Notes under the pieces: generated by a model | Told to the model about the DNA's origin: nothing | The model's input: the letters and a program-made list of their open reading frames with translations, nothing else | Database searches by the model: none | Position numbers and translations under genes: made by a program | Part shown: piece by piece, positions 2,246 to 57,776 of the stretch | Position numbering within the stretch: the first letter of the stretch is position 1 | Layout of the letters: each line of letters begins with the position of its first letter | Assembly: GCA_002104985.1 (NCBI GenBank) | Contig: MCGO01000015.1 | Span: forward strand, 186,001 to 250,000 | Direction of reading: 5' to 3' | Origin: Rhizoclosmatium globosum | Taxonomy: Eukaryota; Chytridiomycota; Chytridiomycetes; Chytridiales; Chytriomycetaceae | Length of the DNA: 64,000 nucleotides

Positions 2246-2949
2246 TCAATTCGCCTTGAAATATTCATACTCCATACCCGTCGCAACATTTTCCGCTGCT
2301 GCCGAATCAATGATCTGTGCAACCAGATTGAGCGCCAAATCAATACCACTTGTAACTCCGCCAGACGTTGCTATTCCGCCGTCAAACACGACTCGATCCT
2401 CTTTAACCAGTACTCCCAATGCTTCCAGCTCATTTTTTGCTGAATGATGTGTGCTCCCTTGGTTTCCTGCTTTCAAGATTCCTGCATGTCCAAGAAGCAT
2501 AGCTCCAGTACAAACAGATCCCCATAACAACTGTGGATTCGCTGCCGATACCTCCTTCAAAAGCTTGATGAGGTTTCCATTCTTGAATTCTGTATAGGCA
2601 CCTGAATTCATTAAGTCAGCACGATTTCGAATCCATCTTGATTAACAACCTTGTTCTGCTCTGCTAGCCCACCCTCCACCGGGGACAATGATGAGATCAT
2701 AGGCAAGTACTGAGACTCGTCAAAAACACCGTCTGGCTTGAACTGAATCCCATGCGCAGAGGTCAATAAGGAGTTGGGGCTATATGGGGCGAATGTGAGA
2801 AGCTTGCAACTCTCCAAACTCTGCTTTCCACCAAGTTTCTCTTGCGCTGCAATTGCTGCTTGTAGGACGCGATAAGGTCCGACAAAGTCAATGTCATCGA
2901 CGCCAGGAAATACGAGGATTGCAATCTTCCGAATGGACTTGAAAGTCAT
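2246..2949 (-). CDS. DJ-1/PfpI-family protein, isocyanide hydratase-like
   Basis: A single-domain DJ-1/PfpI (ThiJ) protein of about 220 aa. The N-terminal motif VFPGVDDIDFVGPYRV contains the Asp used by isonitrile hydratases. The nucleophile elbow is SVCTGAMLLGHAG, with Cys followed by Thr-Gly as in Pseudomonas InhA-type enzymes. The middle motif DLIIVPGGGW is recovered only after adding one G near 2721 (cag to cagg). One intron lies at 2602-2649 and joins RAEQG to AYTEFKNGN. ATG at 2949 is chosen because upstream codons of the same frame lack an ATG. Isocyanide hydratase, glyoxalase III or an uncharacterised amidotransferase-like role are all possible; the family call is firm, the substrate is not. 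It is convergent with the AMACR gene (75 bp between stop codons). Confidence 0.8.
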
Positions 2950-2977
2950 TTTTTTCAACTTTAATTTCTATCTTCGG

Positions 2978-5346
2978 CTAACTAACATATGTAAAAGGAA
3001 ACAGGAAAAGGGGGTTGGGATTACTGGCTTTTTGGGCTTCCAGTTCTTGGTCTTGGAGTATAGTTGTACGAAGCGCTTGAGCAGGTGGCTGCTGAGCAGC
3101 AGAAGAATATCCTTGAGGAGCGGCCGCATACTGTTGTTGTGGGGCTGGAGCATACCCTTCGGCTGATGGGGAATAACCTTGGGACGAAGTCTGACTGTAG
3201 TTTCGCTGGGGTGCAGTGTATGCTTGTGGGGTTGGTTGGCCGTAACCTCCTGGTTGCTGAGGATATCCTTGTGGAACTGGTTGTCCAGAGGGCTGCTGTG
3301 GGATGGAAGATGGCGGTGGGGCCGGGACGCCATATCCCTGTTGTGGAGCAAATCCTTGTGGGGCACCATATCCCTGGGCTGGAGCGTAGTTTTGTTGAGG
3401 AGCATACGCTTGTTGTGGAGCGTATCCTTGTTGTGGAGGGTAACCAGCGTATTGCTGCTGCTGCTGTCCATACACACCAGCCGCAGCTGCGCCAACAGCA
3501 ACGCTGCCTGCAGCGTATTGTGGCTGTTGCTGTCCATAAGCTACATACTGACCGGGAGCAACAGTTGGTTGTTGTGGGCTGACAGTGTTATTTCTTGGGA
3601 GGCGGGCCGCAGCAGCGTTTGCAACAACTTCATCACGAGAGACTGGTTTTTCATCAAGTCCGTATTGAGGAACATTGCGGTCAATTGGCTTGGCAGGTCT
3701 GGTACAGTAATACACTAGTCCTCCAACCAACAAGAGCCCAGCAATACCGCCTCCAATTCCAGCGTACAAAGCAACATTTGTCGTACCCCCAGAAGTCGAA
3801 CCAGTAGGCGCTGTTGGAGAAACGGTTTGGCCACGGGAAATGGGCACCGCACCGTTAATGATAGCAAGCGCATTCAGAATCGAAACGGTTTCGTATTGAT
3901 CACGAGGATTTGTACCATTTGTCATCGTGTGGTCAGAACCTGAAAGCGAGGTTAGAGGATGATGAAATTACCAAGTGAACAAACAATTTACCAGCTGGAA
4001 GGTCGCGAATACAATACCAATCGTTGTTGCACATTTTGAAGTTGTTGGCAGCAGAAGCACGAATAATTTGAGCGACAGAAGCCTGGACATTGGCATCGTT
4101 CGTGTTTGAGTACAAAGTAGCCAAACCCTTGTAAACACCCCAAAGATAACCACTTGGCTTCTTACAGCTAGAGCCATCAGCTCCACAAGAGGGATCGTAA
4201 AGGATATTGTTTTGAGTAAAGTAGGACTGGAGAAGAGCAAAGTGCTTGTGTGCCTCATTGATATAGTACGAGTCTTTCGTGGTGCCATACATCACGGAGA
4301 GACCCGCAATAGTAATACCGGTGTGGTAAGAGAGATAAACAGGGGTAGTTTGACAGGTACTTGCATCGATACCATCAGAAATTTTGTAGCTTGAATCAAA
4401 CAATGCGTTGACCATCCACTTGTATGTCTTGTCCACCAAATTTTTAATATCGGGAGAGTTAGTAATGCGATACAATCTCGCTCCCATTTCAACGAACTGG
4501 GCGTTTGTGATGGCAGATTTGTAGTATCGGTTGTTCTGAATTGTTGTTTGTCGGTCTCTCGACCAGTAAATACCACCTCCACACAGGTCATCCCAGTCCA
4601 TATCCATTTCGTAAAAGGTGTTATTGGTCACTGTGATAAACTTTGGGTTGGCACCATCAACAATATTGTGAGGAGCAACGATTCCATCCTTGAAATCTTC
4701 AGCACCAGTCATAGTTGCCAGACCCCACCATCCAATATCGTCATTCCAGCGACCGGAGCTGGATAGAATTGGGTTGTTTCCAGCCTTAAAGGGGAGCCAA
4801 GTTTAGAAGGAAAAAGGAAAGGAAAGGAAGACGGTACCATAAAATCAGCCGTCATTCCAATCGACAATTGCATTTGACTATCGACCCAGTCAATGTACTG
4901 ACCGTCTCCGGTATATGAATAGTATTGGTAGAAGATCTACCGACAAATTGAAAAGTTCAGCTTCATGTCTAAGTCTTGTATCGGCACTCACATCCCAATA
5001 GATACCAGATTCGTGCCTGATTGTATGAATGCGGTAAGCAACAGGATGCAATCGACAGAGTTGGGGTCTGTATAAACAACTCACCATTGCGAAATGTTCT
5101 CGTCCCACGCACCGTTGGAGTAAGGACTCGAATAGAACTGTTTGAGGGGACCCAACGAGGCCTTGGCAGCGGCAATGACGGCATCTTTACGAAGTTGATT
5201 GGGGGAGTTAGCCCATTGGATCACATTGGACAAGCAGCAAAGCCAGACGCACCTTTGCTGGTCAAGTCAATCGTTGCGGGTGATGGCGCCTGGGCCAATG
5301 CATTCGCTGCGAAGGCGAGACACCCCAAAATGGTCGAAACCTGCAT
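2978..5346 (-). CDS. GH76 endo-alpha-1,6-mannanase-like protein with transmembrane anchor and Pro/Gln/Gly-rich tail
   Basis: Five exons: 5346-5085, 5016-4992, 4936-4838, 4784-3992 and 3939-2978. The N-terminus is a signal peptide (MQVSTILGCLAFAANALA). The GH76 domain carries the paired catalytic aspartates in WNDDIGWWGLA, followed by GGGIYW and CGADGSSCKKPSGYLW. GH76 proteins such as Dfg5/Dcw1 cut or transfer alpha-1,6-mannan at the fungal wall. Those are normally GPI-anchored. Here the domain is followed by a Ser/Thr-rich linker, one membrane span (GIGGGIAGLLLVGGLVYYC) and about 200 residues of GYAPQQ-type low-complexity sequence, predicted cytosolic. One base is missing near 5232 (ccaatg to ccaaatg). 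The final 30 residues could be altered by an unseen frame error. Confidence 0.85.
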
Positions 5347-5350
5347 TGGG

Positions 5351-5376
5351 GGTTGGTTGGTTGGTTGGTTGGTTGG
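5351..5376. repeat. (GGTT)n microsatellite just upstream of the GH76 start codon
   Basis: Six and a half units of GGTT lie 5 bp upstream of the GH76 ATG. The GH76 transcript would read this as CCAA repeats in its 5' leader. It is not telomeric (no TTAGGG). Confidence 0.85.
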
Positions 5377-5538
5377 GTGAAAATTTGTTGGTGTGCGTGC
5401 CTCCCACTCACCTGCCGCTTCTCCCCTTCACCATCTGAACCCTAATAGAGAAATTAAGACTAATAATGCAATAATATTCTTATTCACAGAGGCTGTTTCA
5501 ACTTATTTCAACTATCATTCCTCCGTCCTTCAACTCTC

Positions 5539-7637
5539 TCAAAAATCAAACTCCTTCCGATACTTGTTGACATCACGGTCCGTCTGTGTCATCTCAGCAA
5601 GATCCATTCGAGACATCTAGATTCAATTAGTTACACCATAAGGTATGATAACCCAATTACCTGGATAAACGTCCTCCGCAAAGTATCCCACAAATTCTCA
5701 CTGACATTCACATAACCCAGAGCCTTCTGATCGCCGACAACGTGTAGACTCAAGGCGCCCAACAAATGTTCCGCAGCTTCGCGATAGCAACCAATATTGA
5801 TGCAACTCACACCCAAATTGTATCTGCATCTCACAAACGATGGTTTTAGCTCCAAAGCTTTACGGTATGCTTCAATAGCCTCCTCGCTTCTTCCGCTATT
5901 CGCCAATGTAGCTCCCAGTCGGTTCCAAAGCAGGTAATCCCCGCTTCTAACACGAAGAGCAGAACTGAAACAGTCAATGACCTTGTCATATTCATTCCGG
6001 TTATAAAACAGAACTCCGAGTCCGAGTTGGAGATCTGGATCGATAACACCTTTAGATGATTGAACAGCTTGAATGAACCGAGAGGTTGTGGATTCATGAA
6101 CTTCATAGGTTGAAGTGTATGAGTTTGGATCAGATTTCTGAATATTTTCGGGAATGGCAGGGTACTTCGTCGTGAGCCATCGATTTAATGTAGCATATGC
6201 TTGCAGTTCCTGGTTTTCGTTGGTGTAGCAGACTGAGAGTCCCATCAAAGCATCCAAGTTTCCAGGATTGAGTTGGACGGATCGTTGAAATGCTGATATG
6301 GCTGCTTCTTCCTTTTCATTTTCGGCTTGTACTTTTCCAAGATACATCCATGCCTCACTATTGTCGATTTGGCCCATTTGGACAGCCGCCTCGAACGCAA
6401 GGGCTGCTTGACTCAAACTTCCGCCAGGAGATTCCAGAATTTTAAGGCCTTGCTCCATAGAATCCGAGTATCCCAGGTACGGGTTATCCGGTTCAAACTT
6501 GTACCCGGTCCATGGAGCGGTAACAGGGTCTGGGTCGACAACTTCTCCTTGCTGCCCTCCAAACTCATTCATGAAATCTTCATAGCCTCCATCCCATGGA
6601 TTTTGCATACCTGCAGCCTCCCCCGCTTCTTCGTGCTCCGCCTTCTTCAATTCAGCCCAACGTCTCCCATTTTCTTCATCAGCGCTTGACGCTCTTCTTC
6701 CGTTGTAGCAGCATCGAAATCATATTCGCAAACTCCTCCTCCCAGTTGCGGTAAATTTACCCTTGTTCTCTCCAGAGCCTCATCAAACCCTTTGAGGTCG
6801 AGTTTTTCAAATTCATCTTTCCAAGAGTCCAAATCTCCGTGAACATGTGTTTGAGGAATAGAAGAAGCGGTCATGGGTCCTTTCCCCTTCTCATCGACAG
6901 CTTCGAACTGAGAGAATTGTTGTTGCCATTCGCGTTCGACAATAGGATCATTGTGTTGAATTTGAGGGGTCATCGCCTGTAATGGCTGTCTGAACGATGA
7001 TTGAAGGGCACTGGAATGAAGGAATTCGGAGTTCCAACCTATTTGATTTCATGAGTAATGTTGGCTGTTATCACTGTCATGAAAACATCATACCAAGAGG
7101 TCTAGCAACAGATTTCTGAACCATTGAATTAATGGATGTCTCACGCTCTGTGACATGGGAACTGACTGCTGGGCGCTGTTAAAGGCATCCTCAAATGCTC
7201 CACTCCCAACAGCCATTCCTTCGTCAAATCGACCAAATTCTTGGGACCACCCAGAATTTGACACGCTATTAATTTGACGGTGTTGCTGTTGTTGCTGCAT
7301 AATAGCAGGATTCATTGGAGCTTGAACAGGCCGTTGTGGCTGCATTTGACCCTGTTGGAAGAAGGTCTGGTTGCCCATCTACAGAGACAATTTGAGCATA
7401 TCGAACTTATGGTCAATCATTTTCAAACCTGCGGTGCTGTCTGTCGTCCAAGTCTCGCTGGTCCCTGAATAGTGTGCTCAGCAAAGGTATCGATCTAGAG
7501 CAGACACAACCAACCATTCCCATGCTACTGCTCGAGCTTCCCGATCCCTGAAATTGAGCAGCCGATGACGACGAGGAAAGATGGTTCACAAGTCCTTTGG
7601 CGGCATTTGATGCCCCAGGAGCACAAGAAGCGTCCAT
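5539..7637 (-). CDS. PEX5: Peroxisomal targeting signal 1 receptor PEX5
   Basis: This is the cycling receptor that carries PTS1 proteins to the peroxisomal docking complex. The N-terminus has the conserved cysteine (MDASCAPG) used for monoubiquitination and export. The disordered N-half carries four WxxxF motifs that bind PEX14/PEX13: WSQEF, WNSEF, WQQQF and WKDEF. The C-half has about seven TPR repeats, from residues ENPYLGYSDSMEQ-like sequence to LWDTLRRTFIQ. A last exon at 5616-5539 adds about 25 residues ending in KYRKEFDF. Other introns are at 5617-5660, 7039-7093 and 7379-7428. Single-base frame breaks occur near 6650 (ggga), 7162 (ccc run) and 7490, and each is repaired by adding one base. 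Start ATG at 7637 places the cysteine at residue 5. A gene this important is unlikely to be dead, so I treat the breaks as assembly errors. Confidence 0.92.
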
Positions 7638-48128: not shown

Positions 48129-49563
48129 ATGAATCCACAAGACTCACCTTGGGCGGCTGACAACAACAACGACACATCAATCACCGCTGCTCGATTAAGT
48201 GCTGATAAAGTACTTAGTTCTACCGAGATGCTTTTGACAGAAGATCTGGATCCTTGGACAGAGAAGCCCAAAACCAGATATCCTCCAATCGTGTTCGAAA
48301 CTGAGGTTGTCCCTCTCGTCTTTGCTGGAGACCTCGAATTTGCGGATGCATGGGGCGATGGCGGATCCAGCAATGACGCAGGGAGGACACATGTATCACT
48401 TGAAGGCGAAGCAGATCCATCATTATCAGGCCCAGGTCCACTGCTGGGAGCTTCTGAGCCAAAAGTATTCTGGAAGTCTATTCGAGGAAAGTTTGTTCCT
48501 CCAAGCGCTGTGAGTTGTGTTTCTAAATAAGGTTGTCAATAACCACCTTCACCAGATTCCTATTGGACGAGACAGCGATGGTGCTCCACTTTTTGCCACA
48601 CGCACAAAATATATGAACGGTGTCCATGTTGGAAAGGGACGTAACGGAGGAGGTTGTCATATTCCATACGGTAACGTATAAGAAGCGTTAATGTTACTGG
48701 TACTAATTGTTACATGTAACAGGCGGAAAAGAAATTCTTCTCGGCGATGATGAAGAGTATGATGTGCTGTGTGGAAATCCATCGTCGATAGAGTGGGTTC
48801 CCGCAAACAACAAAGTGCCTGTACCGTTAATGTCAACTGGTCGTTTGATTGAGGGAGGATTTGAAAAAGATGGACCGATATTTATTGGAATCTGCGAAAC
48901 TTATTTCCATGGGACTCAGGTATTACTGAACAAACCTGGACTGCTACTAACTTTTATCATCAGCCAGGAAAGTGTGGTCCACATCTGGCAGGTCTACATT
49001 ACAGTTATGGTGGAAAAGAGATCAATGTCGCACAATACAAAGTAGCTCTTCACGCTGCTCCTTCCACGGAAAATGACGAAGCGGAAGAATTAGTGACGAA
49101 CTCTGGAACTGTATATTGGCGTGCCGCCTCAGTCAAATTGGGTGTACCTGCTGGCGCAATTCGGATGGGACGCGACTCAGACGGAAGTCCTTTGTATGCG
49201 GGTCGTGTGAAAGTAAACAAAGGTGGTGTGCAGGTGGGCAAAGTGAGACTTGATTCAGGATGCTTCATTGGATATGGGGGCAAAGAAGTTCGTTACAAGA
49301 CAGACTTTGAAGTTTTGTGTGGTGATTCGCGAATCATAAGTTTGGTGGAGTTGGAAGGAAGCATCAGCCTTGGAAAACTCGCGGAATTAAAGCCAATTGA
49401 AGCTGGAAACGAAGAAACAGGAATGCCTTTGTATATTGGAATCCACGAAGCGTTTGGCTCAATTCAAATAGGGAAATGTTCACCCTCCCTAAAAGGGTGT
49501 CATTTTTCATACAACGGAAAAGAGCATATTGGTACCAAATACAGGTTGATTGTGTACAATTAA
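48129..49563 (+). CDS. Four-repeat DM9-domain (DUF3421) protein
   Basis: Four exons (48129-48509, 48556-48670, 48723-48919, 48964-49563) give a perfect 430-aa frame. After about 115 N-terminal residues of unknown type come four DM9 repeats, recognised by IPIGRDSDGAPLFATR...HVGKG, YDVLCG; LIEGGFEKDGPIFIG...PGKCG, YSYGGKEIN; IRMGRDSDGSPLYAGR...VQVGKV, FEVLCG; and IEAGNEETGMPLYIG...IQIGKC, FSYNGKEH. No signal peptide is seen. DM9 proteins form mannose-binding dimers in oyster and respond to parasites in mosquitoes. Repeats 1-2 and 3-4 look like a duplicated pair. The N-terminal part has an acidic, Gly/Ser-rich linker. Confidence 0.85.
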
Positions 49564-49714: not shown

Positions 49715-51439
49715 ATGGCAACTGACATCGCCACGTACGCTGGCGAACAACTAACCTGCGCTTGGCAATGGAAAACAATTCTTATTTCAATAGGAGTGTC
49801 TTTCTCTGGCTCCGTTTCAGCTATTCTCTTCAACGAACTGCGTGGAAGGTAAGGACTTTCATCATTTTCTCACATGTTAAAAAATAGTGCAGATCAGATC
49901 CTCCCATTTCCAAACCCTTATCCGCATTTTTACTTTTCACGTCTGGTATCAGCTTGTCTATCCGGGGCATATTTTTCATGCACTTTATTGGAATGTCATC
50001 TTGCAATCTGTCAGTGCCATCCACAGGCAAATCTGTCCCAATGTTCTTGGAATCCGGCCGAACCGCCTTCAGCGCGTGTGTTTGCGCCGTTGTTGTCTTA
50101 TGGGCGTTTTACTATGCGTCGCACGATGAACATTGGAACGACATTGTGGAAGAGCGGATGATACTCGCGGAAAGGATTTACGCACGTCGTGAACGACTGG
50201 CAAATCCCGAACTTTACAAAAGAAAAGAAGCGTCTCCGAGACCTAGCATATGGAAAGGATGGTCGGGTACTAGAGAAGGGAGTGTGAGTGCTGGCAACTC
50301 TAAGAAGAGTAAACGTCTTGGGAATATTATAGAAAGAATAAGTGTCGAAGAGAAAGTTGATGAGGAGAAAGTTGCGATGAGCTCAGGCGAAGTGCACAAA
50401 AGTATGCAAAGTTTCGCGAAAGGCAGTGGTGATGCTGTCGTTGAGATTCCACACAGAGAGCGACATGAAAGCAACACTCCTTTAATAGCAAAATCTTCAC
50501 CCATTCCTTCAAGGGAAGACAAATTTGGAGGTTCTAGAGCAAGTAGTCTTTCTATGACCAGTGTTACCGCACCCACCACTCGATTAACGCCAGAAAAAAC
50601 CGTAAATAGTGGGAAAACAGCAAACGCTGCGGCATATATTGATACAGCGGACATGAAGAGCGTCATGAAAGGTCTTAGACAGAGCGTTACAGCAAGATCA
50701 GGAAATAATACCTTTTTACACGAGCGAAAGCTGGAGCTCAAAATTATGATTCTTTTTGACCGACCTTTGCGAATTGTACTATCTGGAGTGGCGATTGCAA
50801 TAAGTGTTCTTGCAATGCATCATATTGGAATATCAAGCATCCAGATGGAAGCTACATACGAATTTAATGCACCTCTTGTATTATTAAGCGCTATTGTTGC
50901 CTTGGTTGCTTCCATTACTGGGATGTTTATCATTTTTCGTGTTCTTCCTTATTATCCGTATGATATTTTGAAAGTTATAGCGGCATTTTTGATTTCATTC
51001 GCTGTAAATGGAATGCATTACTGTGGAATGGGCGCTCTGACATACAAATATGCACCAAATCCCACATTCAACCCTAGTGGACTCATTGATGGCTCCTTAC
51101 TTGCCGACAATGTTATGTACATTGAGGTACAATTATACTGTCTCATGAAGCAAGTCGCTAAAGTTCTCACCATTATTATAGATTCTGCTGAAAATTGTCA
51201 GTGAAACAGTGATTCGAAATGAGATGGCAAACGTTATTCGGAAGCTCAAGGCACAAGTGCGTGCATTTACAAGTGCGGGAAACAGCTTGGCGAATTCAAG
51301 TAAGCAAAATAACGGCAATTCCCAAGGAGCAATGTCAAATATATCGCAAATGTCTGTCAAGACTCGTCCTTCGATTGTACAAAAACTTGTTTTGCGTGAC
51401 ATTGCATCAAGTGCTTCAGCGGAATTCGAACAATCATAA
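49715..51439 (+). CDS. MHYT-domain integral membrane sensor-like protein
   Basis: Three signature motifs of the MHYT sensor domain are present: FMHFIGM, LAMHHIGI and NGMHYCGM, each inside a hydrophobic helix. Met/His clusters near the membrane surface are thought to bind copper and sense O2, CO or NO. The first exon (49715 to about 49848) supplies one membrane helix, then a 230-residue charged Ser-rich insertion (50130-50720) separates MHYT units, and four more helices follow. A cytosolic tail (NVIRKLKAQVRAFTSAG) ends at 51439. One base is missing near 49940. Bacterial MHYT proteins carry GGDEF/EAL or kinase outputs; none is seen here. Convergent with the NLR-like gene, 44 bp between stops. 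Confidence 0.8.
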
Positions 51440-51483: not shown

Positions 51484-54400
51484 TTAGATCACATAATTGC
51501 ATTTAGCATCCCTTTTCGCCCCAGCCATGACCAATAACTCCATGATAGTTTTATGACCCTTTTCTACAGCAAAAACGAGAGGAGTCTTTCCATTGACATC
51601 AACGCAATTCGCGTTTGCCCCAGCCCTCAGTAACATAGCAACTACAGTTTTGTGGCCATTCTGTGTCGCACAATGAAGAGGAAATACGCCATTCAAGTTT
51701 GCTGTGTTCACGTTAGCTCTTGCAGCAAGAAGAATTCCTAGTATATCTTCGTGACCATAATACGAGGCACAATAAAGCGGAGTCTCTCCAACAAAATCAG
51801 GAGTGTCAACTTCTGAACCAGCACGAATCAATATTTTGACAATTTCGAAATACCCACAACGAGCAGCTGCACGGAGTGGGGTCCAACCATCTGAGGTCAC
51901 CACATTAACATTTGCACCTGCGGCAATAAGTAGTTCAACAATATCTATGTCACCGCTTGCTGAAGCAGTATAAACAGCAGTCCATCCATCAGAGTCAGCA
52001 TCATTCACATTAACACCGAAATTAATCAAGACTTTAACAACTTCTCTGTGAGATTGTGAAGTTGCGGATAGAAGCGGCGTTCGCCCTCTTGATGTACGTG
52101 CATTTACATTAGCACCAGCCTCAAGAAGAATCTCGGTTATATCTCTGTGACCGTCCCAAGCAGCGATATATAATGGTGTCCAGCCATTCATAACAGTTGA
52201 ATGAATGTTTGCTCCCATTTGAATAAGGGTGACAACAACAGCCAAGTGTCCACCTGCAAGAGCAAAATAGAGTGGCGTCCACTGGTCAACGTCTTTGGCT
52301 TCAATATCTGCGCCCTTTTGAATAAGATACGCGGCAAATGATGAGTTTCCGTATTGTGCACAGAGGTGGAGTAGCGTTTCTGGCTCAAAGTTTGAAAGGA
52401 AATCTTTTAAATTGACTGGCGGATATGCCGGATTCAAATGGAGAACTACATTCTGAATCGTATATCTTGTGAGTAAGGGAAGCTTCTTTCGTTCTCTTTG
52501 GTCAGATGGAATGGGAATCTTGTTAATTTCCCGTCCACCAAGATTTCCAAAATCTGTTGTTTTGAGATACGATCCAAGAATATCAAGACAGACTGCGGCC
52601 AAATTTCGATTTGAATCAACGGCGCTTATGTAAATTTCAGGCTTGCAACGTTGCTCTGATGTAAAGAAATCTTTGGCGCTTTTGTGGATGAGGGATATCT
52701 TTCCACCAACAATTTTGAGAATGGACCGCATCTGAAATTGATGGAGTGTGAGGTAATAAAAGTAGTTGTAAATAGGTACATACCGACTCAAAGAATGCAA
52801 CTGTTTGCTCCAACGGAGTGGCAGAGAGAACACTAAGAGATTCCAAGTCAAAAGGTTCGTTGACAAACAAAATCGTGCCAAAAACTTTGTGGTAGACATT
52901 TCTACCATTTTCTGCAAGAGTTTTATCGGCAATGATGCTATATACATCATCTGGACCCGAAGAAAAACCTTGGATTGCAACCTTGGCTTGTTGAGGCGTC
53001 AATCGCCAAATATTCGCCAGCAAGCTTGATAAAAATAAAAACACCCTCGGATTTGGCCACAAGCAAGTCCTTACAAATAAGTAAGTCACCAGTAAAGGGT
53101 TCAGTCACATTCCAAATAGCGTTTAAGCGATTTACAACAACTTTCTCCACATCTATCAAATTCTCTTGAGCAGTTGGCTCAAGCTCAAACGAACTAATTT
53201 TTGTGAGGCAGTCATAAATGTCTTTCTCAGGACGGCCAGTCACGAAGAACTTGACAAATCGGGGAAGCCTGGGACAGAGCTCTGTCAAGATTCTCAAGAC
53301 AACTTCACGCGTTTTGATATTGAGCTCATCCAGTGCATCGATTGTAATGAGAACGATTTTGGAGGAATCAATAGCTTTGCTGAATCCGCCAACGACAAGT
53401 CGAGAAAATGTTGAATATGGATCCGAAAGTATTGTCGATTGACTTCCGGACTGTTGATCGGCAATCATCGCAGCTTCAACATGCAATCGAAAGCCAGGAA
53501 ATTGTTCACAGAGCATCCACACAAGTGTCCGAACAAGATAGACTGGATCATTCTTGAGATCGTCGTTGTGGCGACAAAAGAAGAATACATTGGTGATAAA
53601 GTCCTTCGGTTGTAGATATTGTGTCACAAAATAAGAGAAGAGCGACTTTCCGGTACCAGCCGCACCATTGACCCACATGACAGAAGACTCTTCACTTGAA
53701 TTTTGCCCAATCCCTTACTTCGTCTCCCAACCATACTTCCTTCCACAAAATCTTTCTTGTACGATGCAAAATCAGAGGCAAAATCAATTGGCTTCAGCCA
53801 CGCTTTCAGCTCGTCCACAACGGCAGAAACCAAATGAGTTGGAGCAGAAGAATTTTCTGATGACTCACGGAGTCTCGGCACCAATCTTTTTAGTTCACGC
53901 ACAACTAAGGCTACAGCATCATCAAATTTTTGAGATCCTTGACTCGAAGCTCCAAAATCCGCATAAAGCTTGCCCGCCGTCATTATGAATGGAGAGGCAA
54001 GCTCAGGAGTTTGTTTCAGTTGTTGAATGTCTCTGGACTCCAAGTTTCCAAACATATAAACGGGGATGAGAGGCTTTTTGTTTTCGTCTGCGAAATTGAT
54101 TTCCTTGTGGCAGCTTCGTGATGTCTTTTTTTTTTCATAAAGAATGAATTTGACTGATGGGAGGATTGCTCACCAAATAAGCTTTAGACAGGTATAGGAT
54201 TATTGCTGTGCTCTTTAAAATACCTCGTGCCATCGAAGTGTTGATGTTTCCATTCATTTCATCACGATCAATCCAGATTTTAATGTTGGGGATGATCTTC
54301 AGAAGGGCTTCAGCCAAAGCGTGCACTTGTTCTTTAGTGGCCCAACTGTTCCGTCGTTTAAGAATTGACACGAAGAACGAGCATGCAACTCACGCGTAAG

Positions 54401-55505
54401 ACAGCATACAATCGAATTCGTCTTCACCAGGAATACTGACGGGAAGAACTGATCTTGGAATGTGAAGGTCCGATGTTGTGCAGTCATCATCCCTGAACTC
54501 CACAACACGTTCCACAATCAATTGAGATCCATTTCCACATAAATCCTTAATCGAGTTCTGATCAATGAGAGTTCTTCGACCAGAGTTTTGGTCAACGCCA
54601 AAAATGTTATATTGTGTGTTTTTCACCTTGAAGTGTTTCTCAATCTGGCACAACACAATGGTTAAAAACACGTTGCAAATAGCCGACTTGAAAACTTGAC
54701 TCACCTGCTCTTGCAAATGCTCAACAGTTAACTCATAAATACGGATCGTAACCTCAATTTCAGCTCCGGGCTCATTCACATCAAGGGCAATAAAGTCAGA
54801 AAAATCCAAGGCAGCAATATCAGTTGGACGTTCATTGAACGACAGAATTTGTTCAATGCGTGCACGATCGGTGACCATACGGCGCTTAATCCCGGATTCA
54901 CTAGAGAACACACGATGAAAGACGAGAATATTGAAGGACGATCCAAGGTCGAATTCAGAGCGAATCTGTTTAAATTTTCATCAGCGGATGATGGCGTTGT
55001 ATGAAAGATGGAAGGCATACCATCGCTTTTAGATCCGATCCTCGAGTGCTCTTTTCGACTTGAACGAATTCAAATTCGCTTGGATCCAGGAATCGCTCGA
55101 TCTTGACGGGGAGAGGATAGATGTGCTTGTAAGTGGCTGACGTCACTGTATGAGTAACAGTTGTTGCTTAATCAATGAACTCCAAAAACTAACTCATGTT
55201 CAATTGAAAATATACCTGAGCGTTGAGAGGTAGTAATAGGAACTGAAGCTTTTGTAAGACTGTAAATTGGATTGACAAAAAGTAGCATTCCTCACCCCCA
55301 TCTTTGGCAGGTTCCGCATTCGGCAACTCTAGCTGCTTGCTGCTTGGATACAAAGCTGTTGTACTGGAACTCTTTGCGGCAGCACTGGGTGTGTCTGTCA
55401 AGTGGTTTATGTATGTCAATTGTCGCTAAACGCTTCATCATGATCAATGGTAACATGCATACCTTGAATTCTTGCATTACCCTGGTCTTTCGCAGCTCCG
55501 ATCAT
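51484..55505 (-). CDS. NLR-like STAND protein: ubiquitin-like region - TIR - NACHT - winged helix - ankyrin repeats
   Basis: About 1,200 aa. Residues about 70-250 look like two ubiquitin-like folds (FEFVQVEKSTRGSDLKAM; TVEHLQEQIEKHFKV...LIVERVVEF). A TIR domain follows: EDEFDCMLSYAWATKEQVH, IKIWIDRDEMNGNINTSMA, STAIILYLSKAYL, then SRSCHKEINFA with the Glu that catalyses NAD cleavage in SARM1-type TIRs, and PLIPVYM. The NACHT NTPase has Walker A VNGAAGTGKS and Walker B IVLITIDALDE. A winged-helix-like region ends LIHKSAKDFFTS. Nine ankyrin repeats (52380-51500) finish the protein. Introns about 55442-55386, 55212-55142, 55018-54964, 54713-54654, 54397-54356, 54173-54124 and 52787-52736. Frame repairs near 53690 (one A missing) and 52990 (one extra base). 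STAND proteins of this layout act in innate immunity or self-recognition. Confidence 0.85.
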
Positions 55506-55660
55506 ATCCGCAACAACGAAGTGGTACAGTCAATGTTTGATAAACAGAAATTGAAACATCATCAAATTTAAACTGCCAATACACGGAACCTATCTGGAAC
55601 CTATCATTAACATCCACAAACTACTTCGCTAGCAAAACTATTGCAAAACTGTCGAATGAA

Positions 55661-56440
55661 ATGGAACCCACATCCACAACTCTCCTTTTCCATTCACCAA
55701 AGAACCCACCCCTCTCAATCCAAGTCAGAGAAAGCATCCACTCACCACCTGCAACACATCTTTGGCCCAGCTCAATCGTTCTATCCCGCTACCTGTTCCA
55801 CCAGCTCCTCCACAACCCATCAACCCTCCTAACACCAAACACAACAATCCTAGAACTCGGCTGCGGAACCGCCCTCCCTTCCCTCCTCCTCTCAAAAGCA
55901 ATCCCAAAAGCCAACGAAATCAATAACAATCGCAGCAACAGACACAAACCAAACAGCTCTTAAACTCCTCCCCTCAACCCTCACAAGCTTCCCTCTGAAA
56001 TGGTCCGCGACAGATCCCCCAGAACCCTCAAAAGACTTGACCAGCATCATTCCAAGGCTCGCTATTATTCTCTGTGCAGACGTGTTATATGACCGCGACG
56101 CGTTTGATCCGTTTCTCGCGACGGTTGCACATCTCTTGTTGGAGAGTAAGGTTCCAAACCGAAGTGTTATATGGCGTATCAGAATCGGTCGTCAAAGCGG
56201 TGCATTCAACATTTATTGGATAAATGGGGACTCGTTGCGCGTACGATAGCGTTGGAAAAGGTTGGCGTTGTTGATGGGAGAGTTGGACCAGGTGTTGAGT
56301 TTGTGGATGAGAATGGGATGGCTGTAAGCGGTGAAGGAATTACGGTGGAAGGAGTGGAGGAAGGGTGTGAGAGTGGAAGTGGGTGGGGAGTTGGAATACA
56401 GTCTGTATTTATGGGTTGCATTCAATTGAAAGATGGTTAA
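55661..56440 (+). CDS. METTL23/METTL21-like protein methyltransferase (methyltransferase family 16)
   Basis: A seven-beta-strand SAM-dependent methyltransferase of about 260 aa. HLWPSSIVLSRYLFHQLL matches the W-P-x-(S/A)-x-x-L helix of METTL21/23, TTILELGCGTALPSLLLSKA is motif I (SAM binding), and IILCADVLYDRDAFDPFLATV is motif post-II. Residues YQNRSSKRCIQHLLDKWGL resemble METTL23, a histone H3 Arg methyltransferase in animals. Frame breaks near 55910 and 56175 split the frame into three; both are repaired by adding one base. The stop is at 56438-56440. Its start is 155 bp from the NLR-like gene, divergent. It is convergent with the MT-A70 gene (28 bp between stops). Confidence 0.75.
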
Positions 56441-56468: not shown

Positions 56469-57776
56469 TCATAGTTCATTTCCAATTGTAACCTAGAGCC
56501 AAATCAAAAATCGTTTAGTTGATTCTTGTCCACGTAATAAACCTTACCCAGTAGTTTCTTAAATTATTCTAATATCATAAAGTTAGAAATCGATTGATAT
56601 GAATTACAGTCGAGAAGAGTATGTATACCTTTCGTCCAAAGATTTCGAGGTATTTGCCTGGACGAAACAAAGAGTCAAAAATCGACTGACATTATCAATA
56701 CAACACATACCATTCGGTACCAATTTCTCAATCAAATCATACAATTCTGTCGGTTTCTGACTCTGTCCACGTCTCTCTGAATAAATCACGTCACTCCCAA
56801 CCCCTCCATCAGGAACCTGTACATTCCCTTTAAACCCAACAATACAAGATTCTTTTGCATGTTGCAAATAATGACCATGTCCTTTCGCCATTCGTCGATG
56901 AATTGTTCGTTTGACCCATGTAATATCATCACAATATTGATAACCCCACTTTTCCAGAAATTCGAACGCTTTCACGTATTTTGTGTTGATGACCCATATG
57001 AAAATAAAGCCAGAGTGTTGAAGTAGGGGAATGGGCATATTTTGGATTGATTGATCGGACAGTTGGGAGTAGGAAATAGTCACTCCGCGCGAGGGGATGT
57101 TGGAGGCGAGTTGCCAGGGAGGATCCATTACTATGACGTCAAATTGTGTGGTTGCTGCTAGCGCCTGTTTGAGTAGTTTAGCGATGGAATGAAAGTTAAG
57201 TTGGTACCTTGAAATCAAAGGTTTGAACGTCTGCATTGATTGGAACGCTATGTTCTGGTATAATTGATGGCATAGGTGTGAACGTTTCAGGAATCTCAAT
57301 GGACGCAGCTTGTGTAATGGTTTGATGCATGGCGTTCAGATTGTAGCTGATTGAGTCGTTCACTTCCACTGTTCGGTTTGAGTGAGCCTCAAGATTCGCA
57401 AGTCATAGATGCATAATATACCATCAATAGAGTCGTCTTCATCTTGTTCCACTTGACGCGATAGATCCACGCCGTAAGGTTGGATGTCCGACTCTTTCCT
57501 CTCCAAGATGCTGAAAGCCTCAAGGACACGCAGCTCTTCCTTCGCCTTTACAATCTGCGCAACCAAAGAGCTTTCTCGTGCGATTAACTCTGCGAGACGG
57601 TCATCCAGGCGTTTCAGTTTTGCAGGACTGGTGGGCAGACTGGTGCTAGGAGGCTTCTTGACGTGGTAAGAAGGCCGCTTTACTGGTGGTGGTGGTGGTG
57701 GTAGTGGGAGTGGTTGTGCAATCGATTCCGGTTCATCGTCGCTGAGTCCGAGAATGTCAATATCGTCAGTGTCCAT
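56469..57776 (-). CDS. MT-A70 adenine methyltransferase, MTA1-like candidate
   Basis: The N-terminus is short and charged, with a poly-Pro run and a coiled coil (LKRLDDRLAELIARESSLVA). The catalytic domain has FDVIVMDPPWQLASNIPSRG (DPPW active site), FIFIWVINTKYVKAFEF, ITWVKRTIHRRMAKGHGHYL, QHAKESCIVGFKGN, and KPTELYDLIEKLVPNGKYLE with IFGRKNYWVTIGNEL at the end. The AKGHGHYLQHAKE segment differs from METTL3 and METTL14 and, as I recall, resembles the MTA1 clade that makes DNA 6mA in ciliates and early fungi. No CCCH zinc fingers precede it. Introns: about 57420-57368, 57209-57167, 56711-56664, 56634-56558 and 56547-56493. The second last exon is 10 nt (56557-56548). METTL3 or METTL4 are less likely alternatives. 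It starts 58 bp from the Pex24-like gene. Confidence 0.75.

Follow-up and report, generated by a model that had tools for sequence, protein, structure and literature searches.

The 64,000-nucleotide stretch of Rhizoclosmatium globosum DNA analysed here (contig MCGO01000015.1, positions 186,001 to 250,000; 'the window') carries, on its minus strand from 55505 to 51484, a multi-exon gene that encodes a TIR domain, a NACHT NTPase and ankyrin repeats in that order. We think it probable that this gene is a frame-broken copy from a family of intracellular immune sensors of the nucleotide-binding oligomerization domain-like receptor (NLR) type, and that the TIR domains of this predicted family cleave nicotinamide adenine dinucleotide (NAD+) when their NACHT parts cluster. 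The TIR-NACHT arrangement recurs with fixed order and strand across the genome, is encoded in single uninterrupted frames at two other loci, retains a putative catalytic glutamate, and is under purifying selection in the paralogues.

A TIR-NACHT-ankyrin gene with three frame breaks

The exon-intron structure and the reading frames were taken from the sequence and then modelled, and Pfam was run on the minus-strand read-through protein (1190 residues, with X placed at each frame break). TIR_2 scored 55.6 bits over residues 265–353 (cut-off 28), NPHP3_N 89.6 bits (cut-off 24.8) and NACHT 31 bits (cut-off 26.7), and nine stretches passed for PF00023 Ank, the number of ankyrin repeats that an earlier note, made from the sequence alone, had counted. 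The profile check proposed in that note thus gave TIR_2, NACHT and Ank over their cut-offs, but PF01582 TIR remained below its own (16.2 versus 21.3 bits). The NLR-type order of N-terminal region, TIR, NACHT, linker and ankyrin repeats that it had described in a chytrid is borne out by these matches, and its Walker A (GAAGTGKS, 53666–53643) and Walker B (DALDE, 53339–53325) motifs can be read in the sequence. It had also placed the gene ends correctly, 51484 being the end of a stop codon and 55505 a possible start codon. The middle exon of the TIR was detected in the whole-genome search as well (26.9 bits).

With an NTPase of the NACHT type that has both Walker motifs, followed by C-terminal repeats, the protein has the architecture of a fungal NLR (STAND NTPase receptor). 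The winged-helix-like part of the earlier description was not recovered, no such family being present among the 16 Pfam families that matched the read-through with E up to 10. Neither LRR nor NB-ARC was found among these 16, so that the protein is not a plant-type TIR-NB-ARC-LRR receptor (TNL), and PF06985 HET was not found among them either; a HET-type or plant NB-ARC-type identity was therefore ruled out. The features of the window copy are as follows.

54705–55505, minus strand: N-terminal region with the first ubiquitin-like-looking segment (unproven); gene model, P0001 aligning collinearly
55505–55463, 55394–55296, 55242–55216, 55145–55021 and 54965–54705, minus strand: exons of the N-terminal region; gene model
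54408–54644, minus strand: second ubiquitin-like-looking segment (unproven) and linker, in the first part of exon 54644–54394; gene model
54044–54407, minus strand: TIR domain (TIR_2 stretch) in three exons, with introns 54393–54346 and 54173–54125; Pfam
54101–54103, minus strand: GAA codon of the putative catalytic glutamate (SCHKEI); sequence, aligned with the HKE of TIR-1
53695–53741, minus strand: first two frame breaks, at about 53735 and about 53702, including EVWLGDEVRDWAK in a separate frame; tblastn frames -1, -2 and -3
53624–53740, minus strand: continuation of the TIR frame beyond the first break, to a stop codon; sequence
53232–53699, minus strand: NACHT (NPHP3_N) NTPase with Walker A and Walker B; Pfam
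52984–53002, minus strand: third frame break, at about 53000; tblastn frame -3 to -1
52390–52999, minus strand: post-NACHT linker with an IHKSAKDFF motif, exons 52999–52784 and 52731 onward; gene model, tblastn
51484–52389, minus strand: ankyrin repeats, matched by Pfam Ank in nine stretches, with the stop codon; Pfam, sequence

The seven modelled introns upstream of the first break are all GT-AG and 48–70 nucleotides long, and an eighth lies at 52783–52732; intron lengths and the start codon were modelled from the sequence, without RNA, and the model is least certain in its N-terminal exons, 1–3.

The TIR-NACHT family in the genome

The genome (56.9 Mb in 420 contigs) was searched in six frames, exon by exon; all counts are lower bounds, and near-identical copies on different contigs are included in them. 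TIR_2 gave at least 92 matches in at least 90 loci, and NPHP3_N at least 66 matches in at least 60 loci, which rules out that the window gene is an isolated oddity. A TIR lay upstream on the same strand within 3 kb at 36 of the 60 listed NACHT loci, and within 600 bases at 34 (expected 0.14). In the control, a TIR lay downstream at only one of the 60 and on the opposite strand at none; this control of order and strand rules out chance neighbourhood. The remaining 24 NACHT loci had no listed TIR.

Twenty of the 36 TIR-NACHT pair loci were fetched, among which four pairs are 95–98% identical and one pair is 90% identical. No second copy of the window gene is present; the next-best DNA match in the genome is 66% identical. 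At two loci TIR and NACHT lie within a single uninterrupted frame (L036, 607 residues; L019, 562 residues). That TIR and NACHT belong together, the point on which the earlier note had said its reading could be refuted, thus holds at the level of the family, in sequence rather than RNA.

The tail is swapped between members. In the tail scan, which covered 18 of the 20 fetched loci (all but L025 and L033, which duplicate L021 and L031), nine tails were of the WD40 type, six were ankyrin, one was Sel1 and two were unrecognized. In eight near-copy comparisons, of TIR-NACHT or tail exons of paralogues, the ratio of non-synonymous to synonymous substitution rates (dN/dS) was 0.081–0.277. We conclude that the paralogues are maintained, with the TIR-NACHT core under purifying selection; this result applies to the paralogues rather than to the window copy.

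Tandem arrays were seen in some tails: in L036, a WD40 repeat array at 5365–6839 (126-base unit, 11.7 copies, 81% matches), and in L032 an ankyrin repeat array at 2827–3453 (99-base unit, 72–74% matches). The sensor parts of L034, L030 and L020 contained no tandem repeat array; directly after the WD40 tail of L034 lies a minisatellite (7188–7442; 13-base units, 19.6 copies). No tandem array was found in the window ankyrins, and recent repeat homogenization there was ruled out.

Two groups of TIR_2 matches stand apart from the pairs. At C112:918849–924838 and at C55:49939–55892 there are four same-strand TIR_2 matches each, about 2 kb apart and without a listed NACHT, which looks like a tandem TIR gene array present as two copies. 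The genome's two best TIR_2 matches, L001 (C201:163160–163852) and L002 (C201:155624–156358), each show two close TIR matches per locus, in L001 both inside one 529-residue frame.

Orthologues and relatives in the databases

A protein search with the read-through returned 32 proteins, five of which have both TIR_2 and NPHP3_N: P0001 and P0003 (Rhizoclosmatium sp. JEL0117), P0002 and P0005 (R. hyalinum) and P0004 (Podochytrium sp. JEL0797). Both genera belong to the Chytriomycetaceae. The other 27 are similar mainly through their ankyrin, NACHT or WD40 parts. P0001, with 1190 residues, is a near full-length orthologue, 91% identical over 99% of the read-through, and P0002 is a partial one at 89% identity. 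P0004 and P0005 carry WD40 in place of ankyrin, and a portion of the NACHT is missing from the annotations of P0002 and P0005. When the TIR alone was used, to look for a wider origin of this domain, only three Rhizoclosmatium proteins were found among 187 candidates; a profile search gained P0033, which is not annotated with a TIR, and missed P0005, both of these long searches having scored only the candidates with most shared words.

The putative catalytic glutamate

We built a TIR family profile from six sequences and compared it with solved TIRs. The best matches were Cat1 (2.1e-6) and Caenorhabditis elegans TIR-1 (2.9e-5), followed by Roq1 (2.4e-4), MyD88 (2.5e-4) and RPS4 (4.3e-4). A scan of a defence library gave weak matches of TIR type only (PDC-S66 3e-6, bSEFIR 1e-5, ThsB 1.2e-5). 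NADase TIRs of the SARM1 type have a conserved glutamate in the helix that follows the fourth strand. The glutamate in HKEI context that had been singled out previously, SCHKEI in the window TIR, aligns with the HKE of TIR-1. It is readable and kept (C..E) at 18 of the 20 fetched loci, L022 and L029 being unreadable at this place; among the database relatives it is kept in P0002, P0004 and P0005. That these TIRs cleave NAD+ is plausible on this evidence.

The N-terminal segments

The two ubiquitin-like (UBL) segments of the earlier description had no significant match. In a search with four sequences, the N-terminal segments matched six weak Pfam families, all sub-threshold; among them were DWNN (E 0.015), UN_NPL4 (E 0.12), DUF276 (E 0.012) and DUF620 (E 0.014). 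DWNN and UN_NPL4 are ubiquitin-like folds, and DUF276 and DUF620, which are not known to be, score as well as these. The sole match in the PDB was to U11/U12 25K (E 0.71). A double ubiquitin-like module is therefore possible only.

The N-terminal region recurs with the family. The N-terminal query from the window gave 33 genome matches, which were grouped by hand into 16 loci including the window; a TIR follows directly downstream in 14 of the 16, and a TIR-NACHT pair in 13. In six paralogue loci (L010, L021, L023, L026, L030 and L032) the UBL-TIR-NACHT-ankyrin pieces are collinear with those of the window, and the ends of the N-terminal match differ among these six.

The frame breaks and alternative interpretations

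Several observations weigh against our interpretation of the window gene as one of a family of NAD+-cleaving sensors. Among them are the frame breaks of the window copy, at about 53735, 53702 and 53000, which lie between the TIR and the end of the NACHT and were located by tblastn with P0001 and P0002. For the enzyme activity, a search with the single window sequence gives no better than E 0.18–0.22 (0.18–0.19 for TIR-1 and Cat1), and in the profile comparison the adaptor MyD88 scores much like the plant NADases, so that the profile match alone cannot separate an enzyme from a scaffold. In P0003 a valine replaces the glutamate, and the annotation of P0001 is missing 12 alignment columns, the glutamate among them. 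Among the 90 TIR loci, 54 have no listed NACHT. The genome also has HET-domain matches in 17 places (for example C20:93259 and C168:362336), and TIR is hence not the sole effector of such a type in this organism. P0003 is, in its own right, a TIR-NACHT relative that is perhaps an inactive regulator.

The first question is whether the window copy functions at all. The tblastn pieces of P0001 and P0002 are collinear on the window and run through frames -3, -1, -2, -3, -1 and -2. The first and last of these frame changes coincide with introns 54173–54125 and 52783–52732, the middle three do not, and P0001 and P0002 are uninterrupted at all three break sites. As written, the TIR frame runs to a stop codon ending at 53624 and excludes the NACHT frame. 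The copy's own function is thus doubtful, and on sequence grounds it is likely to be a member of a working family that has become a pseudogene or a damaged allele.

Whether it is functionless altogether, as a pseudogene or a mis-assembled copy, with the paralogues alone at work, we regard as evenly balanced. Three breaks within about 750 bases, which two orthologues read through, speak for this. At 14 of the 20 fetched paralogue loci the NACHT is encoded by a single open frame longer than 400 residues, and near copies such as L031 and L033 differ by five gap positions in 7320 bases; the assembly is therefore not generally indel-ridden. In contrast, the TIR, NACHT and ankyrin exons of the window copy contain no in-frame stop, and the parts after the breaks are still about 88–95% identical to P0001. 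In-frame bridging GT-AG introns also exist (10 for the first two breaks jointly and 17 for the third), although they would remove residues that are conserved, and coding, in the relatives, which leaves rescue by splicing as a possibility only. Finally, the P0001 and P0002 annotations skip stretches, hinting at breaks or annotation patches there too.

For the family, the alternative to consider is that the TIR acts as a scaffold rather than as an enzyme, with NACHT clustering creating a TIR platform that recruits partners by TIR-TIR contacts, as in animal adaptors. The match of the family profile to MyD88 and the missing glutamate of P0003 would fit such a role, and the TIR loci without a listed NACHT could serve as the partners. 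We consider this unlikely: the glutamate is present in all 18 readable paralogues, whose domain identity is 40–60%, and the two solved TIRs that match best, Cat1 and TIR-1, are labelled NAD hydrolase or CRISPR-associated TIR.

If transcribed unchanged, the window copy would yield the UBL-like/TIR half only, and this short protein, about 492 residues long, could then serve the full-length paralogues as a partner that has only a TIR, or as a decoy. From 55505 through the glutamate the TIR frame is unbroken, and TIR loci without a listed NACHT are common; yet the NACHT and ankyrin parts further downstream seem to have been coding until recently, and we find this less likely still than a scaffold. 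That TIR and NACHT-ankyrin are two adjacent genes wrongly joined, as the position of the breaks between them in the window might suggest, is highly improbable given the fixed order and spacing at 34 of the 60 listed NACHT loci, and for the family separate genes are ruled out by the single frames of L036 and L019 and by the annotation of P0001–P0005 each as one protein.

A predicted mode of action

In NLRs generally, the tail senses, the NACHT clusters and the TIR acts. If the same holds for the NAD+-cleaving sensors that we favour, the ankyrin, WD40 or Sel1 tail would bind a foreign or altered molecule, exchange of adenosine diphosphate for adenosine triphosphate at the NACHT would lead to ring-like clustering, and the clustered TIRs would cleave NAD+ through the glutamate of the CxxE motif, causing depletion or a signal and, in consequence, cell death or shutdown. 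We infer all of these steps (sensing, clustering, NAD+ cleavage and cell death), and the immune function itself, by analogy with relatives; the same holds for the self/non-self sensing that the earlier note had put forward.

We advance a broader proposal more tentatively, since we think it rather less likely to hold than not to: the chytrid lineage may have built a TIR-NLR repertoire of its own, convergent with plant TNLs and comprising dozens of receptors in which a double ubiquitin-like module and an NAD+-cleaving TIR are joined to a NACHT and to freely swapped ankyrin, WD40 or Sel1 sensors. Immunity by NAD+ depletion through NLR clustering would then be native to fungi outside Dikarya.

Plants, animals and bacteria all use TIR domains to drive immunity by cell death, yet fungal TIRs are described as almost absent in a recent TIR atlas (PMC13142454). 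The present genome has at least 92 TIR_2 matches and at least 36 TIR-NACHT pairs, copies included. Should its TIRs prove active, this chytrid, a saprotroph that can be cultured, would offer a test bed for whether fungi have NAD+-cleaving NLR immunity, and could show what such receptors sense during the swimming, single-celled stage and by what route their tails are exchanged.

Neighbouring frames

Upstream of the gene, on the plus strand, a Methyltransf_16 frame (55544–55963, 31.6 bits) lies just beyond the possible start codon, and an MT-A70 frame follows on the minus strand (56604–57335, 117.6 bits); both appear to be ordinary neighbours. On the other side, both on the plus strand, are a DM9 repeat protein frame (48865–49563, 91.5 bits) and an MHYT domain frame (49888–51204, 62.3 bits). 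MHYT is a sensor domain, mostly bacterial in descriptions.

Comparison with known systems

Our search of open-licence papers found no description of this TIR-NACHT family. An early survey (PMC4986451, 2014) found no NLRs in chytrids. Later accounts differ: PMC9815663 (2022) reports TIR in Chytridiomycota NLRs and TIR-like effectors in Pezizomycotina, and PMC10197012 gives one sentence to an N-terminal TIR in a small group of fungal NLRs, both crediting fungal TIR-NLRs to Daskalov, Dyrka and Saupe 2020. The preprint PMC13142454 (2026) names R. globosum as the only exception to the near-absence of fungal TIRs and gives the InterPro TIR clan as lacking fungal ones; the excerpts of PMC12881547 and PMC7075850 make general statements only. 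The earlier note called a TIR effector unusual for fungal NLRs; the design is indeed rarely reported, but TIR had already been mentioned for Chytridiomycota NLRs (PMC9815663).

Those Chytridiomycota TIR-NLRs resemble the present family in having a TIR at the N terminus of a fungal NLR; an expanded family, a double N-terminal module and exchanges of ankyrin, WD40 and Sel1 go unmentioned in the accessible parts of PMC9815663 and PMC10197012. The R. globosum TIRs of PMC13142454 are from the same genus as our best matches; the word 'NACHT' is absent from its main text, so far as available, and domain partners are not described there. The HET-NACHT-WD40 NLRs of Podospora (HET-E, HET-D and HET-R) follow the same three-part plan: a death or signalling domain stands at the N terminus, a NACHT comes next, and the C-terminal repeats differ from one paralogue to another. 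HET is itself a distant relative of TIR according to PMC4986451 and PMC10197012. The Podospora NLRs differ in having HET where this family has Pfam TIR_2 and in belonging to Ascomycota rather than to a chytrid, and the window family has a probable extra N-terminal module and no known role in incompatibility.

The plant TIR-NB-ARC-LRR receptors Roq1 and RPS4 likewise have a TIR front, a STAND switch and a repeat tail; the switch is NACHT here as against NB-ARC, and the tail is ankyrin, WD40 or Sel1 as against LRR. SARM1 and C. elegans TIR-1 share the HKE(I/L) context of the glutamate and a weak sequence match. SARM1, which contains ARM and SAM domains, lacks the NACHT-ankyrin part, and the window read-through gave no Pfam match to ARM or SAM. 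Set against the passages of the literature available here, the TIR-NACHT-ankyrin design is rarely reported in fungi, and fungal TIR-NLRs as such are not new; what is new is that the family is expanded, swaps its tails and possibly has a double ubiquitin-like module at its front.

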